From: Candidatus Methylomirabilis sp. | GTDB lineage: Bacteria > DYJV01 | DNA: 9,834 bases | Direction of reading: 5' to 3' | Assembly: GCA_020722945.1 (NCBI GenBank) | Contig: DYJV01000057.1 | Coordinates: 5,392 to 15,225, forward strand | In this document: one piece after another, positions 1,966-9,834 of the stretch | Numbering within the stretch: the first letter of the stretch is position 1 | How the letters are laid out: every line of letters begins with the position of its first letter | Notes under the pieces: generated by a model | Databases searched by the model: none | Seen by the model: only the letters and a program-made list of their open reading frames with translations | What the model was told of the DNA's origin: nothing | Made by a program: the position numbers and the translations under genes

Positions 1966-3147
1966 ATGAAAAAAGGCGTGATAATATTTATAATAGGCAT
2001 TATCATATCATCCTCAACTATATATAGCGAGAAACTGATTCAGACTGACACTTTACCGAATAAATCTTTTAAAAAGATAGAATCACTTGCATTATATAAA
2101 TTTGATGGCAAACTTATAAACAGCGGGAGATTATCGTTTGTCGACACATTATCTATATCAGATAAATTCAGTCATTATCTGTTAAAAAAGTTTCAGGAAA
2201 TCCCGGGGTTTACAATAGTAGAAGTTGGAGAAAAAATTACTATCTCTGAAGGAGACAACCTATCTGTTATACGTGGCAAAAATGTTCCACAATATGATTC
2301 CAAAACATTTATCAATAGTGACGAGAAATCAGAAAATGTTGTCAAAACAATTGAATCTTCATTGTATGGAAAAATCACAAAATATTATGAAGGTGAAACT
2401 TTTGATACAAGTTATATTGAGATAACATTTTATCTCGTAAATACAAAGAGCAAAGTGATATATTGGGTTACACAAATGAGCGGCTGTTTAAAATATGTTG
2501 TTGATACAATAGTCCAAACAATAGCAACGGGAGAATATAGTGAACCAACTGTAAAAGATAGAGCAAACTTTAAATGGAAGAACCCTTATGAACTACGAAC
2601 AAAAGAGTTTGCCATAGAATATAGAAGAGGTTATATGCTCCCTGCGGACAAATTGGATTCAGGAGCTAACAATATACTTGCCCTTTATTTTAAACTGCCA
2701 TTATTTAATAAATTACCAATATATAATCAGATAGAAATTAATATTATACCATCTTTAAAATCAACAGATACAAGCAATCCATTGATGAATTATCAATATA
2801 CAACTTATGTCCCACTCTTCTTCGATTTCATCTATAATTTTGACACTATTATTAAAATAAATAACATAAGACCTTTTGCAAGATTGGGATTAGGAGGCAC
2901 TTTTATAAGCACATATTATAGTGGGACTGGTTATTATATTCCAACTGAAAATCGTTTTGATGGTATATTAAATTTTGGCATAGGAGTAGAGTACTCTATT
3001 AAAATAGGTCTTGTTAATATATGGAAATTATATTTTCGTTTAAAAAAGATAGGATTTGTTGGATATATAGATTACTACAAATGGTTTTCAAGTAATCCTA
3101 CTTCAGGCTCTTTGAACTTAAGTTTGGGTTTGAAATACTACTTTTAA
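1966..3147 (+). CDS. Exported CsgG/LpoB-like domain plus putative beta-barrel
   Basis: A 393-residue protein I do not recognise as a named family. A signal peptide covers residues 1-21 (MKKG, hydrophobic core, TIYS then EK); no lipobox Cys is present. Residues about 36-185 look like a CsgG/LpoB/TolB-N-type alpha/beta domain: KKIESLALYKFDG strand, a helix DKFSHYLLKKFQEI (66-79), FTIVEV, then SLYGKITKYYEG and a YIEITFYLVNT...KVIYWVT pair of strands. From about residue 205 the chain becomes beta-rich, aromatic and Gly-patterned (RPFARLGLGGTF, GILNFGIGVEYSI). It ends in SLNLSLGLKYYF, a terminal-Phe amphipathic strand typical of outer-membrane barrel proteins. The start follows AAAGGAGT (1951-1958) at 7 nt. 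It lies alone after a terminator, and its last 50 bp overlap the convergent ATPase gene. A barrel of only about 190 residues would be small (about eight strands). Confidence 0.7.
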   Translation: MKKGVIIFIIGIIISSSTIYSEKLIQTDTLPNKSFKKIESLALYKFDGKLINSGRLSFVDTLSISDKFSHYLLKKFQEIPGFTIVEVGEKITISEGDNLSVIRGKNVPQYDSKTFINSDEKSENVVKTIESSLYGKITKYYEGETFDTSYIEITFYLVNTKSKVIYWVTQMSGCLKYVVDTIVQTIATGEYSEPTVKDRANFKWKNPYELRTKEFAIEYRRGYMLPADKLDSGANNILALYFKLPLFNKLPIYNQIEINIIPSLKSTDTSNPLMNYQYTTYVPLFFDFIYNFDTIIKINNIRPFARLGLGGTFISTYYSGTGYYIPTENRFDGILNFGIGVEYSIKIGLVNIWKLYFRLKKIGFVGYIDYYKWFSSNPTSGSLNLSLGLKYYF

Positions 3148-3541
3148 TCAATCTTATATGATTACCTCTACCTTTGATATATCTATACTCAACCTTATCA
3201 ATTAATTTTTTTAATATAAAAAGTCCCAGCCCATTATTTTTTATATCTCGTAAGTTTTTGTCTGATTTCATCTTTTTATGTTTTAATAAATTAAATTTTG
3301 TGCCTTCATCAATAATATCAACTATAATATTATTGTCAACTTTCGTAATCACTATATCAATATACTTATTTTTTCTATTTTTATAATTATGTCTAATAAT
3401 ATTTGCGCAGACTTCATCACTACTTATAATTACATCTTCGGCTGTGTCTTTCTCAATATTGTAAAAATTTAGACATTTCTCGACAAAATTTCTAATCTTT
3501 GGCAAATTGTTTTCTATACCTTCAATTTTTAACTTTTTCAT
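3098..3541 (-). CDS. HATPase_c_2 protein, RsbW/SpoIIAB-like
   Basis: A 147-residue cytosolic protein of the GHKL ATPase group that includes anti-sigma-factor kinases and phosphatase-linked ATPases. The N-box is S-DEVCANIIRH (41-51) with Glu43 and Asn47. The G1 box is IDEGTKF (77-83) with Asp78 and Gly80. The G2 box is NNGLGLFILKKLID (102-115), and the closing strand is GNHIRLI (126-132). It is about the usual size for the family. Its ATG (3539-3541) overlaps the stop of the upstream sensor gene as ATGA, so the two are translationally coupled and surely act together. In known systems such proteins bind a sigma factor or an anti-anti-sigma STAS protein; neither is encoded here. The C-terminal tail, about residues 131-147, lies in the 50-bp overlap with the convergent gene and after the conserved fold. 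Confidence 0.88.
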   Translation of the reverse strand: MKKLKIEGIENNLPKIRNFVEKCLNFYNIEKDTAEDVIISSDEVCANIIRHNYKNRKNKYIDIVITKVDNNIIVDIIDEGTKFNLLKHKKMKSDKNLRDIKNNGLGLFILKKLIDKVEYRYIKGRGNHIRLIKSSISNPNLSSKSLK

Positions 3542-5529
3542 AATTTAAATTTTACGGCATAAACCTTCTCAGGCATATCTCTACCACGAATTTTAACATC
3601 AACAATATAGTGCATCTTTATCTTATTCTTCAAATGTTTAAACACTGCTTCTGATATAACTAATACACCTGGTTTTGTAATTGACTCAAATGAGTATGCA
3701 TCACGTATAGTGTCACCAACAACAATAAAGAATTTCCCGTAGTTGGAGCGCAATTGTGAATACGAAATGTTTCCAGTATTAATACTGATACTTATCTCTA
3801 TATTAGAATTATTTCTCTTATTAAACTTTCTAAGTTCTCTAAATATATTTGATGCTGCATTAACACTATTCTTAATATGGTCATAATGATTAAACGGCAC
3901 ACCAAAAACTGCAAGGAACGAATCAGCTGCAAAATAATCAATATATCCTCTATGTTTAGATACTATCACCTCAATATCATTCATAAATTTATTCAACAAC
4001 ATTTCCAATTCCTCTTTAGAATTACTGCTCTGAATCTCAGAAATATTTTTTATCTTTAGGTATAATGCTGAACCCTGTTTCATATCTGGAACTATCTTAT
4101 TAAACTGATTATTGATATACTCATTCACCATCTCTTCTGGAACTGTTTTCCCAAAAACAAGGAAGCCACCGACTTTTGATACAAGTCTATTGAATCTATT
4201 TTCAATCATTTTAAATTCTGTGCTTGAATTTAAAGTAACCTCTGTGTCTGGTCTGCCATGAAGTAGATTCTTAATTCCGTAAGAGATACGATTCAATGAG
4301 CCTGTAATATATTTTTTAAATAATAGAAATAAAATAAAGAAAACAATCGCTTCAAATAGGAAGAATATAATAAGAGTAAATAAAAAATTGGGATTTCTCT
4401 TATACTTGAATAATACCTTATTTGGATTTGCCATAGAAACAATATACCAATCTTTATTATCCATTTTTTCTTTTAAATATATTTCTTTACGGGACTTTAT
4501 AATAAGGTCACTATCACTTTTTAAAATTTTTCTCATAATATCAAAATCACCAACATACTCCCCTATATGTTCCTTATCAGGTGTATAAACAAGCAACCCT
4601 TTATTATTAACAACAACCGTGCTAAACAGTTCATTATATTCCTTCATAATATCTTTGAACAGCGAGTCAATTTTTATCGTAAAACCTGCCACTCCAATAA
4701 ACTTTCCTATCTGATTATATAACGGCGTAAAAAAAATAATATACGGCACTTCGGAATCTTGAAATTGTTTATATCCTATGTCAGGAAAGATGTTGTCCTC
4801 ATCTAAAAATTTATGGACATACTCCTTTTTTGTATCTGCAAAATTATCCAGAAACTGAAACGGCTCCATATTATATAATTTATGGCGTGATATATAAGTA
4901 TTCTTTTTTAAATTATATTTTGATAATATATATGGATTGTCAAGATAAAAGTATAAAACTGCTTTCTGCGGAATATTTTCCTCCAGCCATTTCATATATG
5001 GAGTATAGGTATATATGGTCCTCCAATATTTTTTATTCCATGGGGTGATATTTAATAGCCTTCCAAGATGATTAAAAATGAAAAAATTTTCAATATCCTC
5101 CCAATTTTTGCTGTACCTATTTAAACTCTTTTGCATATCAAGAATATGATTAAGATAAAAAGGCACACTATATTTTTTTGCAAATAACTCACATTTAAAA
5201 AAGTAATCTGAAACTCTATTATTAATCTCTTGCGATAAGAGTTTATGAGAATAGATATAACTGGAAAGATAATTTCTGACCTTTGGTAAATCTGATATTT
5301 TTGGCGGCTTAAAAAGATTGGAAAAAATTGTTAGTTGAACAAAAACAAATAAAATATATATTATGAGCAATATAATAACAGCCTTAAAATTTAAGCCTGA
5401 AAAGAATCTCTTTATAAAAGGGGAATATTTAAACTCGATAAAAGCAGATTTTATCTTCAAATTCAGCCTATGTTTATACCAGAAAAATTTGTTATTAAAA
5501 ATAAATTTTAATTTATCTCTTATACCCAT
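3538..5529 (-). CDS. Membrane sensor with Cache, HAMP and degenerate class III cyclase domain
   Basis: A 663-residue inner-membrane receptor. Order: basic cytosolic N-terminus (1-48), TM1 (about 49-70), a large extracytoplasmic region (71-380) whose second half has the Cache pattern (PLYNQIGKFIGVAGFTI, 269-285, then VVVNNKGLLVYTPDKEHIG, 305-323, and WYIVSMAN), TM2 (about 381-404), HAMP (about 405-455), and a class III cyclase-like domain (about 484-663). The cyclase fold is clear from DYFAADSFLAVFGVP (531-545), SISINTGNIS and VVGDT (603-607). Most catalytic positions are replaced: first metal Asp is Lys492, substrate Lys is Tyr532, purine-selecting Asp is Phe600, transition-state Asn and Arg are Arg609 and Ser613. 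Only the second metal Asp (Asp536) remains. It is therefore probably not a cyclase but a binding or signalling module. It is coupled by ATGA to the HATPase_c_2 gene. The ribosome site is weak (GGA about 12 nt upstream). Confidence 0.85.
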   Translation of the reverse strand: MGIRDKLKFIFNNKFFWYKHRLNLKIKSAFIEFKYSPFIKRFFSGLNFKAVIILLIIYILFVFVQLTIFSNLFKPPKISDLPKVRNYLSSYIYSHKLLSQEINNRVSDYFFKCELFAKKYSVPFYLNHILDMQKSLNRYSKNWEDIENFFIFNHLGRLLNITPWNKKYWRTIYTYTPYMKWLEENIPQKAVLYFYLDNPYILSKYNLKKNTYISRHKLYNMEPFQFLDNFADTKKEYVHKFLDEDNIFPDIGYKQFQDSEVPYIIFFTPLYNQIGKFIGVAGFTIKIDSLFKDIMKEYNELFSTVVVNNKGLLVYTPDKEHIGEYVGDFDIMRKILKSDSDLIIKSRKEIYLKEKMDNKDWYIVSMANPNKVLFKYKRNPNFLFTLIIFFLFEAIVFFILFLLFKKYITGSLNRISYGIKNLLHGRPDTEVTLNSSTEFKMIENRFNRLVSKVGGFLVFGKTVPEEMVNEYINNQFNKIVPDMKQGSALYLKIKNISEIQSSNSKEELEMLLNKFMNDIEVIVSKHRGYIDYFAADSFLAVFGVPFNHYDHIKNSVNAASNIFRELRKFNKRNNSNIEISISINTGNISYSQLRSNYGKFFIVVGDTIRDAYSFESITKPGVLVISEAVFKHLKNKIKMHYIVDVKIRGRDMPEKVYAVKFKL

Positions 5530-5541
5530 AATTTTATATTA

Positions 5542-5568
5542 TCCGATTTTGTTGTTAAAAATATCGGA
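5542..5568. promoter_or_regulatory. Inverted repeat in the divergent intergenic region
   Basis: TCCGAT (5542-5547) and ATCGGA (5563-5568) form a 6-bp inverted repeat with a 15-bp spacer, 13 bp upstream of the sensor start codon. It is among the few G+C-containing words in an otherwise A/T stretch of 124 bp (5530-5653) between the divergent sensor and CNNM operons. It could be an operator half-site pair or a 5'-leader hairpin of the sensor mRNA. Six-base arms can also occur by chance. Confidence 0.25.
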
Positions 5569-5653
5569 ATTTAAAAAAAAACATTAATTCATATATTTAC
5601 TACTTATTGACTTTTTGTTATAAAAACATATCTTATAAAGAGGAAATTATTTT

Positions 5654-6814
5654 ATGAAAGTTCCAGCAGGAATATTTATTAGTAATACTGAAACTGCTAA
5701 ATCTAAGTATCTACTGACACCCATTGATATGGGACACTACTTAAAGATAAAAGCAGGTTCTGCACTAGATAGCAATTTAAATGAAAATGTTACTGTTTTA
5801 GAAAAATTAAAACAGGTTTTTAACCAACTGCTCAAAATGGTAGAAAAAAATAATGACCCTGACATATTTAAAAAAGCAACGGAAAATTTACCCAAAATAG
5901 TAACAAAAAATTTTACACGGGATTTAACCTTTAAAGAGAAAGAAGTAATTATGTTAGAAGTTTCTCAAACTTCTGATTTGATGCCCCCTGATGGCGAATT
6001 GTTGCTGAAACTTATCTCTGCTTATCCTGAATATTACAAAACAAGCAAAAACAAGAAACCTCTTTCTGAAATAATTAAGATTGTTGAATCCGGTTCAAAT
6101 CTCTATATTTTAAATGATATATATTTACCACAGGAAAACCGCATGGTTATAGGATATGGCGAATTATTAACAAAAGAACTATTATCATCAATGAAATCCG
6201 AATTAAGAGGTGTAATAAATAAAAAGAAAGAGGATATATTCACTGATGTCTTATCAAGTGGTGAAAAAGTAGCACGAAACGATATTTACTCCTATATGGG
6301 AATACTATTAAAAAAATCTGGTGAAAGTATGGACGAAAATTTTATTCAATCACCCCAATTCCAGCAATTGCTGAAAGGGGACCCTGAAATATATTACATT
6401 GATGAAAAAGAGTTTAACGGTACAATAATTTATGATAAAAATAATAACTCCTTATTACTTTTACGCAAAATATTTAAAACAAATTACCTGCATCTTATAG
6501 ACTATTTTTCGGAAAAAAATGGTCTCTTTTCGTCTATAATAAAAGGAAAGAACCCAAAAATCATTATCACAGTTGCAGATACAATGGAAGAAATTGAGGA
6601 ACTGATTAACAACTTAAAAGAGACCTTCACTTTGCAAACCAGCAAGTATAATAAAAAATCCGAAGTAATATTCATTGTAAACAAGCAACCTGAAATAGAA
6701 AAAAAGATACGTGAGAATGGATTCACATTTATACTTGACAAAAAAATTATATTTAGTAACTTTAATCAATTCAGTGAGACACTGAATAATTTGGTTAAAA
6801 TGTTTAATGATTAG
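5654..6814 (+). CDS. Unrecognised soluble protein, first gene of the CNNM operon
   Basis: A 386-residue protein I do not recognise. It has no signal peptide or membrane segment, so it is probably cytosolic. The N-terminal part (residues 1-45) is strand-rich; about 46-100 looks helical (NENVTVLEKLKQVFNQLLKM); 100-180 mixes acidic helices with strands such as NRMVIGYGELL (162-172). Residues about 299-385 look like a small alpha/beta domain with alternating strands and helices: NPKIIITVADT, a MEEIEELINNLKETF helix, SEVIFIVNK, an EIEKKIRENG helix, FTFILDKKIIF, then a final helix. That pattern resembles a response-regulator-like or Rossmannoid fold, but no phosphoacceptor cluster is evident. The start follows AAAGAGGAAA (5637-5646) at 7 nt. 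Only 21 bp separate it from the first CNNM gene, so an operon is likely. Its divergence from the sensor gene offers a possible regulatory link. Confidence 0.7.
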   Translation: MKVPAGIFISNTETAKSKYLLTPIDMGHYLKIKAGSALDSNLNENVTVLEKLKQVFNQLLKMVEKNNDPDIFKKATENLPKIVTKNFTRDLTFKEKEVIMLEVSQTSDLMPPDGELLLKLISAYPEYYKTSKNKKPLSEIIKIVESGSNLYILNDIYLPQENRMVIGYGELLTKELLSSMKSELRGVINKKKEDIFTDVLSSGEKVARNDIYSYMGILLKKSGESMDENFIQSPQFQQLLKGDPEIYYIDEKEFNGTIIYDKNNNSLLLLRKIFKTNYLHLIDYFSEKNGLFSSIIKGKNPKIIITVADTMEEIEELINNLKETFTLQTSKYNKKSEVIFIVNKQPEIEKKIRENGFTFILDKKIIFSNFNQFSETLNNLVKMFND

Positions 6815-6835: not shown

Positions 6836-8098
6836 TTGGAAGATAATCTTCCCATAAATATCATTTTTATATCTATTCTACTTGTATTATCTGCTTTTTT
6901 TTCTGGTTCAGAGTCAGCATTTTATTCTATTGATTATATCACACGCGAAAAACTTAGAAAAGAAGATAAAAAATCTAAAATCATTTACAATCTGCTCCAA
7001 CATCCTAATAAACTTCTTATAACTATTTTAATAGGGAATATGTTTGTAAATATCCTTGCATCTTCTTTAGTCTCAGGTTTTGCAATTACGCTGACATCAC
7101 AAGTTGGAATTTCCAATATATTAGGAGTTTCCATAGCAATAACTATAATGAGTATATTAATTATACTTTTCGGTGAAATAATGCCCAAAATAATAGCCAT
7201 CTCAAAACCAATTACATTTGCAAGAATATTTGCCATACCCATTAATATAGTAATAATACTGCTAAGGCCTGTATCAATCATTTTTCAATATTTTACTGAT
7301 ATAATTACAAACAAAATAATCAAATATTCTTCTGAAACTATGAAAGAAGAAGATATCAATTCAATAATCAAGATAGGACACAAACACGGAATTATTGATG
7401 AAGAAGAGAAAAACATAATGGAAAATGTTTTTAGTAGCGTGAAAAAAGAGGTGTCTGAAATAATGATACCCAGGACAAAATTATTTGCACTCAATATTGA
7501 AAAGGGTGAAAAATATATAATAAAAAGCATAATAAAAAATAAGTATAGTCGCGTTGTAATCTTTAAAGAAATAAGGGATAATATCATAGGTATAATACGA
7601 AAGAAGGATATTCTACCATACTATTTCAATTTAAAAAAAGCGAACACTTTAAAAGATATAATAAAACCAGTAATTTTTGTTCCTGAAAATAAAAAAATAA
7701 ATGATATGCTGCGTGAATTTCAAAAGGAAAAAAAAGATTTTGCAATTGTGGTTGATGAATACGGGGGAACTTTAGGTGGCTTAACAATTGATGACATTGT
7801 TGAAGAGATAATGGGTGAATATCAAACAGACTATGAGCAGGAAAATGTTCATTTAAAAAAAATAGGTAAGGATAAATACATAATCAATGGGGATATGGAA
7901 ATTGAAGAATTTAATGAGATATTTAATGCATCTATTGAATCAGAAGATTCAGATACTATAAGCGGACTGATAATGGAACATACTGAAAAAATTCCTCAAA
8001 CAGGTGAAAAAATTATAATTGACCATTTTGATTTTACAGTTAATAAAACAAGGGGCCCAAAGATATTACGATTAATGGTTGAAGTAAGAGAAGGGTAA
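6836..8098 (+). CDS. CNNM/CorC family divalent-cation transporter, first copy
   Basis: A 420-residue membrane protein of the hemolysin C/CorC/CNNM family (UPF0053), associated with Mg2+ or Co2+ transport. The DUF21 membrane domain spans about residues 5-160, with the signature FFSGSESAF (21-29), the GNMFVNI segment (67-73) and GEIMPK (113-118). A cytosolic CBS pair follows (about 205-330): MIPRTKLFAL (210-219) opens it and VVDEYGGTLGGLTIDDIVEEIMGE (305-328) closes it in classic form. The CorC_HlyC domain is about 340-418 (YIINGDMEIEEFNE, with the SGLI core). Length and order match full-size family members. It starts at TTG behind AAGAGGTG. It is followed after 3 bp by a second family member, so the two are translated from one message. 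Substrate is inferred from the family; no transport specificity can be read directly. Confidence 0.92.
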   Translation: MEDNLPINIIFISILLVLSAFFSGSESAFYSIDYITREKLRKEDKKSKIIYNLLQHPNKLLITILIGNMFVNILASSLVSGFAITLTSQVGISNILGVSIAITIMSILIILFGEIMPKIIAISKPITFARIFAIPINIVIILLRPVSIIFQYFTDIITNKIIKYSSETMKEEDINSIIKIGHKHGIIDEEEKNIMENVFSSVKKEVSEIMIPRTKLFALNIEKGEKYIIKSIIKNKYSRVVIFKEIRDNIIGIIRKKDILPYYFNLKKANTLKDIIKPVIFVPENKKINDMLREFQKEKKDFAIVVDEYGGTLGGLTIDDIVEEIMGEYQTDYEQENVHLKKIGKDKYIINGDMEIEEFNEIFNASIESEDSDTISGLIMEHTEKIPQTGEKIIIDHFDFTVNKTRGPKILRLMVEVREG

Positions 8099-8101
8099 TT
8101 T

Positions 8102-9346
8102 ATGATAATTATTTTAATAATAATTATGATTTTACTTGAAGCATATTTTGCTGGAACAGAAACTGCTATAATATCAGCAAGTGAAATAAAACTGAGAGCA
8201 ATGATTTCTAAAAAAAGAAACAGTGAGTGGGACAAAAAAATCAGGCGTGTATTATTTATGATGAAAAATACCGATAAGGTCCTAAGTGCCCTACTGGTTG
8301 GAACCAACATCTGTATAGTTACAGCTGCCTCTTTATCATCAATGTTGTTTATAAAACACTTTGGAACTTCCGGTGAATATTATTCAACTTTAGTAATTAC
8401 AACATTGATTTTAATTTTCGGTGAAATATTTCCAAAATCAATATTCAGAAAAATTGCCGAGCCTGTACTTATAAAAACAGTTTGGTTTTTGGAATTTGTT
8501 ACAAATATATTTTTTCCTGTTGTTAGTTTTATAGTAAAAATCACACATAGAATAACATCAACAAAGGGAACAGAGGAAAAGAAAAATAAATTTTTCCTGA
8601 CAAAAGATGACTTAAAATCAATTTTCAATATAACTGCTAACAATGGAGTTATTAAGGAATTTGACAAAAAAATATTATACAGCGTGTTTGACTTTGGAAC
8701 AACTTATGCACGTGAAATTATGGTTCCATTGATTGATATTATTTTAATACGCAATGACAAAAAAGTTATAGATGTCATTACATTAAGTGAAAAAACTGGT
8801 TTTTCAAAAATTCCAGTATTTGCTAAGCAGGTATATAATATTATAGGCTATATCAATGTCAATAACCTATTTAAAGCTAAATCAAATGAGAATCTTGCTA
8901 AATATATAGAGAAAGCTTACTATGTTCCGGAATCAAAAAAGATTGATGACCTGTTCGTTGAAATGAACAAAAAAAAATTACCTGTTGTATTCATAGTTGA
9001 CGAATACGGAGGAGTTTCTGGTCTTATAACGTTAGAAGACATAGTTGAAGAAATTGTGGGAGAAATAGAAGATGAATCCAATTACAGCGAGGAAGAAGCA
9101 ATAAAAACTGCAAGTAAATATGAATGGGTAGTTACAGGGGGGGTAGATATAGATGACCTATTTAATGAAATAGGATTAAGACTTCCTAAAAGAGGATTTG
9201 AAACAATAGCTGGGTTTATTGAATACTATTTAGGCAGAATTCCACGCAAAAATGATTCATTCATTTATAACAATTTCAAATTTACTGTGTTGGTAAGCAC
9301 AAACAGAAGTGTGGAGAAAATTAAAATAACAAAGATAAAAAAATAA
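8102..9346 (+). CDS. CNNM/CorC family divalent-cation transporter, second copy
   Basis: A 414-residue paralogue of the preceding gene with the same order. DUF21 covers about 1-150: the first helix begins at Met1, AYFAGTETAIISASE follows at 14-28, GTNICIV at 67-73 and GEIFPKS at 107-113. The CBS pair is about 203-322: REIMVPLIDI, then FIVDEYGGVSGLITLEDIVEEIVGE (297-321). CorC_HlyC is about 335-411 (WVVTGGVDIDDLFNEIG, then FETIAGFI). The first-helix motif is AGTE where the first copy has SGSE, so the Ser at that cation-site-proximal motif is replaced by Ala. The two copies differ widely outside motifs, so this is an old duplication rather than a recent one. AGAAGGG (8089-8095), inside the end of the previous gene, serves as ribosome site at 6 nt. 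Transcription probably ends at the downstream stem. Confidence 0.92.
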   Translation: MIIILIIIMILLEAYFAGTETAIISASEIKLRAMISKKRNSEWDKKIRRVLFMMKNTDKVLSALLVGTNICIVTAASLSSMLFIKHFGTSGEYYSTLVITTLILIFGEIFPKSIFRKIAEPVLIKTVWFLEFVTNIFFPVVSFIVKITHRITSTKGTEEKKNKFFLTKDDLKSIFNITANNGVIKEFDKKILYSVFDFGTTYAREIMVPLIDIILIRNDKKVIDVITLSEKTGFSKIPVFAKQVYNIIGYINVNNLFKAKSNENLAKYIEKAYYVPESKKIDDLFVEMNKKKLPVVFIVDEYGGVSGLITLEDIVEEIVGEIEDESNYSEEEAIKTASKYEWVVTGGVDIDDLFNEIGLRLPKRGFETIAGFIEYYLGRIPRKNDSFIYNNFKFTVLVSTNRSVEKIKITKIKK

Positions 9347-9398: not shown

Positions 9399-9581
9399 TT
9401 ATTCTGACTTAATAGCCTGCGTAGGACATTGGTCTATAGCACTCTGAACAGTAGATTCATCAAATCCTTCTTCTTTTATAACTTTTGCTTTGCCATCATC
9501 ATCCATCTCAAATACATCTGGTGCTATTGATACACATACTCCACAACCAATACAGGCTTCCTTATCAATACTTACTTTCAT
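9399..9581 (-). CDS. Small [4Fe-4S] ferredoxin
   Basis: A 60-residue cytosolic electron carrier holding one [4Fe-4S] cluster. Cluster ligands are Cys10, Cys13 and Cys16 in ACIGCGVC and Cys52 in CPTQAI. The second-cluster cysteines of two-cluster ferredoxins are absent. APDVFEMDDDGKAKV (20-34) is the usual strand-turn-strand of the single-cluster type, and overall length and motifs are close to the Thermotoga maritima ferredoxin. The positions of that protein's disulfide (Cys20 and Cys43) are Ala and Ser here. ATG at 9579-9581 is preceded by a strong AGGAGG (9592-9587) at 5 nt. It stands alone, convergent with the CNNM operon, with its own promoter candidate and terminator. No redox partner is encoded nearby, so the partner is unknown. 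Confidence 0.95.
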   Translation of the reverse strand: MKVSIDKEACIGCGVCVSIAPDVFEMDDDGKAKVIKEEGFDESTVQSAIDQCPTQAIKSE

Positions 9582-9629
9582 CTCTTCCTCCTCAATCTTT
9601 TTATTATTTAGAAAAAATTTTGAGAGAAA

Positions 9630-9657
9630 AATATACTTCCCACAATTTCTGTGACAA
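9630..9657 (-). promoter_or_regulatory. Sigma-70-type promoter candidate for the ferredoxin gene
   Basis: On the minus strand TTGTCA (9657-9652) and TATATT (9635-9630) are spaced by 16 bp, each one base from consensus. Transcription would start near 9623, giving a leader of about 42 nt that includes the strong AGGAGG ribosome site. This is the best promoter match seen in the window. Confidence 0.6.
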
Positions 9658-9694
9658 GAAAAAAAAGTGTTGTTGCATAATTAATTTGACACCA

Positions 9695-9808
9695 TGTCAC
9701 CCCCCTGTATTCACAGGGGCAGGCTCTGCGAATGCAGGGGTCTCATATCTGATAATTCACGATATTATGAGAAAAATCAAGGCGATTCCTGCATACGCAG
9801 GAATGACA
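9695..9808. repeat. REPIN/MITE-like element of inverted palindromes
   Basis: A 114-bp non-coding element, richer in G+C than its surroundings, bounded by TGTCA (9695-9699) and TGACA (9804-9808). It contains three hairpins. CCCCTGT/ACAGGGG (9702-9708, 9713-9719) closes on ATTC. CTCTGC/GCAGGG (9724-9739 region) closes on GAAT with a G-T wobble. ATTCCTGC/GCAGGAAT (9785-9792, 9797-9804) closes on ATAC. The first arm ACCCCCCTGTATTC and the inner GAATGCAGGGGT also form a longer imperfect inverted repeat. Two REP-like palindromes in opposite orientation around an AT-rich middle (9741-9780) is the REPIN layout. The translated phrase IPAYAGMT is a familiar sign of such repeats. No transposase is present. 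Confidence 0.75.
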
Positions 9809-9834
9809 ACGGGCCTTATTTTTACAAAATAATG

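Follow-up and report, generated by a model that had tools for sequence, protein, structure and literature searches.

What does a membrane receptor do when its output domain has kept the fold of a class III cyclase but hardly any of the catalytic residues, and when its gene overlaps that of an RsbW-like protein? The question is raised by two genes in a 9,834-nucleotide stretch of Candidatus Methylomirabilis sp. DNA, here called the window. The features of the pair are as follows.

3538-5529, minus strand: receptor gene, an intact open reading frame of 663 aa, encoding a predicted Cache-type membrane receptor with a degenerate class III cyclase output
3098-3541, minus strand: RsbW-like gene, an intact open reading frame of 147 aa, encoding a stand-alone HATPase_c_2 protein of the predicted protein kinase or anti-sigma switch type
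3538-3541, minus strand: ATGA stop-start overlap, read from the sequence, a putative translational coupling signal
5530-5653: intergenic region between the receptor gene and the divergent gene at 5654, the likeliest promoter site for the pair

The overlapping genes and their products

At the base composition of the window, the chance of 663 open codons in one given frame is ~3e-26, and that of 147 open codons ~2e-6. The kinase gene ATG is preceded by no Shine-Dalgarno-like sequence, which fits translational coupling of the two genes, but the receptor gene start likewise has none; coupling is a probable feature of the pair. Four-base overlaps are common in operons, also where the genes have nothing but the transcript in common, and are no proof of interaction. 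In the presumed promoter region there is a sigma-70-like match at 5558-5531 on the minus strand, although such matches are no more frequent in 5530-5653 than expected from shuffled sequence. A convergent gene (1966-3147) and the kinase gene share 50 bases (3098-3147) at their 3' ends. Elsewhere in the window are a lipoprotein-like gene at 21-1250 (FlgT_N 22.3 bits, below cut-off; LipL46 lipoprotein model 60.7 bits against a threshold of 400), two tandem genes for CNNM/CBS/CorC_HlyC membrane proteins (6836-8098 and 8102-9346), a short ferredoxin-like reading frame recognized by eye (9403-9582, minus strand) and a contig-end repeat (9640-9834) with eight matches in the genome, some of them at other contig ends, which may be a mobile or palindromic element at which the assembly was interrupted.

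The receptor can be divided into five parts.

5323-5394, minus strand: predicted first transmembrane segment, about residues 46-69 (Kyte-Doolittle maximum 3.0)
4390-5322, minus strand: predicted periplasmic sensor, residues 70-380, membrane-proximal half dCache-like (dCache_1 below cut-off)
4318-4386, minus strand: predicted second transmembrane segment, about residues 382-404 (Kyte-Doolittle maximum 3.1)
4162-4317, minus strand: degenerate HAMP-like linker, residues 405-456, from profile-profile colinearity and not from Pfam
3550-4071, minus strand: class III cyclase-fold domain, catalytically degenerate, from the Pfam profile and alignments

The output domain is cyclase-like (Guanylate_cyc 45.8 bits, cut-off 21.9), and the SpoIIE/PP2C output domain of an RsbU/RsbP-type PP2C receptor is absent. 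A degenerate GGDEF output was rejected, GGDEF_GdpP reaching 18.6 bits against a cut-off of 30. For the sensor, dCache_1 scores 33.4 bits over the whole protein and 35.4 bits over the periplasmic part alone, both below the cut-off of 45. Pfam detects no HAMP domain in the linker, not even in a scan confined to it; residues 404-660 are nevertheless colinear with ten Cache-HAMP-cyclase proteins in profile-profile alignment (99.5% probability, E 2.5e-23), and degenerate HAMP is therefore the most suitable name for the linker. The periplasmic sensor has no sequence relative in its own or the sister genome, and the receptor has no close relative in the named genomes searched and none in the viral contigs, phages and plasmids searched. 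An AlphaFold2 model of the receptor from the single sequence was unusable (mean pLDDT 38.6).

Alignment of related cyclase domains places the six canonical positions at K492, Y532, D536, F600, R609 and S613 of the receptor. Active cyclases have at these positions D, K or E, D, a residue that determines the base (D, E or N among the aligned domains), N and R. Five of the six active-site residues are lost: the first metal Asp is replaced by K492, K/E by Y532, the base-determining D by F600, Asn by R609 and Arg by S613, the second metal Asp (D536) being the sole one kept. By comparison, both Asp, Lys, Asn and Arg are retained in 28 of the 29 cyclase loci from other genomes, the exception (L039) having S at the first Asp and H at Asn, and the two other cyclases of the same genome, on contigs C22 and C56, keep all five. 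With only the second metal Asp, neither the receptor's own site nor a site shared in a heterodimer can be complete, and the domain is predicted from its residues to be an inactive pseudocyclase, a term not found in the literature searched.

Two other accounts of the receptor may be considered. Class III cyclases act as dimers, and the degenerate domain might pair with C22 or C56, the complete cyclases that retain both metal Asp, Lys, Asn and Arg, as its regulatory subunit, with the kinase as a side partner. The receptor, however, keeps a single metal Asp and lacks both Asn and Arg, and so has no half-site with which to complement a heterodimer, whose catalytic form was rejected for want of a complementary half, and the C22 and C56 genes are unlinked to it and their products only 22-30% identical; a subunit role is thus quite improbable. 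The second account is that of a decaying cyclase-receptor gene with a functionless link to the kinase gene, in keeping with its occurrence in one genome, with the weak HAMP and Cache profile scores and with a codon-position GC contrast weaker than in the neighbouring genes. Against this, 663 open codons in sequence of 30% GC and a colinear domain order argue for maintained coding, and decay seems improbable too, if a little less so than the subunit role.

The 147-aa protein matches HATPase_c_2 (PF13581) at 77.2 bits (cut-off 27.4), and its best PDB match is RsbW (6m36, E 2.4e-7). It misses the NCBIfam equivalog cut-offs for RsbW/SpoIIAB, with 58.7, 48.7 and 42.3 bits against 145, 155 and 135, respectively (the first two for RsbW models), and is, by these profile scores, RsbW-like and not an equivalog. 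The kinase residues of the N-box (E43, N47, H51), of D-x-G (D78, G80) and of G-x-G (G104, G106) are all intact; the protein should therefore bind ATP and phosphorylate, and is predicted to be kinase-competent. The preliminary description had proposed an ATGA overlap of receptor and HATPase_c_2 genes, a degenerate cyclase and an RsbW-like ATPase, all of which stand: both frames are intact and have 3538-3541 in common, the catalytic losses contrast with near-complete conservation in relatives, and the ATPase is of the RsbW type with every kinase residue kept.

Partner-switch components elsewhere in the genome

It had also been remarked that no STAS or sigma gene is in view. Within the window this is true, and a PP2C gene is lacking there as well, but it is a local fact only. 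The assembly (2.5 Mb in 184 contigs, 98% complete, 5.8% contaminated, with the window on contig 96) encodes five STAS genes elsewhere, four of them with Ser or Thr at the phosphosite: the motif is DSSG at C87 and C137, DSTG in both C72 genes and DSAG in the C44 gene, which by eye we take to be CheA-linked. There are in addition four PP2C genes and four genes with sigma-70 region 2; by eye, the products of the latter look like RpoD, a protein of the FliA type and two other sigma-70 proteins. Partner-switch parts are thus available in trans, and absence of local partners proves little. The search for such genes elsewhere, which the preliminary description had called for, thereby weakens its argument from missing neighbours.

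Which of these STAS proteins the kinase might act upon is not singled out by similarity, since they match RsbW-linked STAS proteins about equally. The STAS genes at C137 and C72 have no adjacent HATPase gene. Four further HATPase_c_2 matches occur in the genome, one on C23, one on C44 and two on C87, where they flank the STAS gene. The HATPase_c_2-like genes flanking a STAS gene in locus L011 (5099-6094 and 6782-7354) keep the N-box and D-x-G, their second glycine box being unaligned. Two other matches carry an N-terminal receiver.

L010 1059-2015 and L009 4241-5044: HATPase_c_2 proteins with an N-terminal receiver, clear at C23 and weak at C44

Response_reg scores 67.9 bits in the C23 protein and 17.2 bits, below cut-off, in that of C44. 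The receiver fusion shows that HATPase modules of this same genome come under direct input control.

Search for the pair in other genomes

Each protein was used to search 386 genomes, and the neighbourhoods of the 29 best loci outside the genome itself were inspected for each. None of the 29 cyclase loci has an RsbW-like gene within ~1.5 kb, and a cyclase gene adjoins none of the 29 RsbW-like loci, 22 of which have a STAS gene or domain nearby. Wider stretches around 20 cyclase loci, up to a few kb on each side where the contig allowed, yielded two weak HATPase matches in large frames. L295 and L300, with a weak HATPase match in frames of ~530 codons that are probably histidine kinases in our reading, were set aside as candidate second pairs.

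A further 115, less similar RsbW-like loci were inspected over ~4 kb on each side where available. STAS and/or PP2C occurs in 86; a cyclase-like gene is within reach in three, each time on the other strand or separated by other genes. Candidates for a second pair were set aside at L178, where RsbW and cyclase are separated by a PP2C gene, at L287, where the genes are on opposite strands and more than 3 kb apart, and at L197, where PHP-like and STAS genes intervene and the cyclase-like domain is weak (28.6 bits). In this last locus (845-2536, genome G116) the gene for a membrane protein with that weak C-terminal domain is located upstream of paired STAS and RsbW-like genes, from which the PHP-like gene separates it. 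When 84,980 named genomes were scanned by pattern and the 80 best RsbW matches kept, STAS was found within 5 kb of 78, PP2C of 75 and cyclase of none. An adjacent cyclase gene is consequently seen in none of 224 RsbW-type neighbourhoods, these samples being chosen by similarity, possibly overlapping in part, and not random.

The sampling comprised one genome of the organism's own family and two of its phylum, and the sole other genome of the phylum has no match to either protein. Conservation of the pair in relatives, against which the preliminary description had set its proposal, was thus not found, that second genome being without both genes and no sampled genome pairing them. With one genome sampled, absent conservation is lack of support for the pair and not disproof. 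The arrangement is unusual: the receptor-kinase pairing is seen in one genome and in no other of those sampled, and no title or abstract in the searched literature describes an RsbW and cyclase pair.

The survey also lends weight to another explanation, by which the RsbW-like protein would be an orphan partner-switch kinase of the ordinary sort, its target a STAS protein encoded at a distance, and its gene merely co-transcribed with that of a receptor that signals otherwise or regulates the kinase only indirectly. Orphan RsbW-like genes are frequent, 29 of the 115 further loci having neither STAS nor PP2C within ~4 kb and lying beside unrelated genes (DNA polymerase I, FtsZ, QueH and glycosyltransferase are among the neighbours), and the genome does supply STAS and PP2C genes at a distance. 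Yet a stop-start overlap ties the gene to that of a signalling receptor more closely than a chance neighbourhood would, and no other output activity is apparent in the receptor. The orphan explanation is a serious possibility, albeit one we would not expect to prove correct.

A possible sensory unit and its relation to known systems

That receptor and kinase are functionally linked by one route or another is probable. Taken together, the stop-start overlap, the loss of catalytic residues and the preserved kinase motifs would fit control of the co-translated kinase by protein contact. A dimeric receptor would sense an extracytoplasmic signal with its dCache-like domain, and the HAMP-like linker would relay it to the paired cyclase folds. 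These would have ceased to produce cyclic nucleotide and may instead provide a platform on which the RsbW-like kinase, itself made from the receptor's mRNA by stop-start coupling, is docked or gated. The kinase would then phosphorylate or sequester one STAS protein encoded elsewhere, an action that one or other of the four PP2C proteins would undo. We put forward tentatively, at somewhat less than an even chance, that the Cache receptor docks or gates the kinase in this way and so feeds a partner switch encoded elsewhere. The stricter version, in which the dimer of dead cyclase domains binds the co-translated RsbW-type serine kinase directly and controls it allosterically, a pseudoenzyme replacing PP2C at the sensory entry, is on the unlikely side. 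Dimerisation, direct docking, the identity of the STAS target and the downstream output are steps that we infer. Further points for the docking or gating reading are that the cyclase is degenerate inside an intact 663-codon frame whose residues 404-660 can still be aligned to Cache-HAMP-cyclases, that STAS proteins with DSSG or DSTG motifs and PP2C proteins are encoded in the same genome, and that this genome fuses HATPase_c_2 modules to receiver-type domains; points against it are that the pair occurs in one genome only and that four-base overlaps are commonplace. Resting on one pair in one genome, it is a testable hypothesis and not a discovered class.

Partner switches are usually taken as phosphatase-controlled. 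If the docking or gating reading is true, a sensor acting on the kinase via a non-catalytic cyclase fold would be a second kind of entry point; it would assign a bacterial pseudocyclase a role, and would widen the view that sensors and outputs are coupled as an 'exchangeable toolkit' (PMC12143880).

Among known systems, RsbW/SpoIIAB, as represented by B. subtilis RsbV-RsbW (PDB 6m36, PMC7340262), resembles the kinase in its HATPase_c_2 domain, stand-alone size, N-box Glu-Asn-His, D-x-G and G-x-G, but here the scores are sub-equivalog, there is no adjacent STAS or sigma gene, and a pseudocyclase receptor gene overlaps instead. The RsbV-RsbW-PP2C clusters of Ignavibacteria, Melioribacter, Calditrichota, KSB1 and others (L097-L176) contain the best-scoring RsbW proteins of the named genomes (26-38% identity), and differ in the company these keep, the 5-kb counts given above being of STAS and PP2C to the exclusion of cyclase. 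Cache-HAMP class III adenylate cyclase receptors share with the present receptor a linker at the HAMP position after the second transmembrane segment and a colinear cyclase domain, whereas here the catalytic residues are lost, the HAMP is degenerate, the sensor is dCache-like and not single-Cache, and a kinase gene overlaps. A precedent for direct contact is offered by RsbT, a HATPase-family protein. In the B. subtilis general stress response, RsbT binds RsbU at its linker and N-terminal domain, and outputs that can be exchanged are driven by sensor domains of a shared kind (PMC12143880), so that an RsbW-related switch protein can bind a sensor/effector dimer directly. The output of RsbU is an active PP2C-type phosphatase, whereas the candidate partner here is a pseudocyclase receptor, to which binding is putative.
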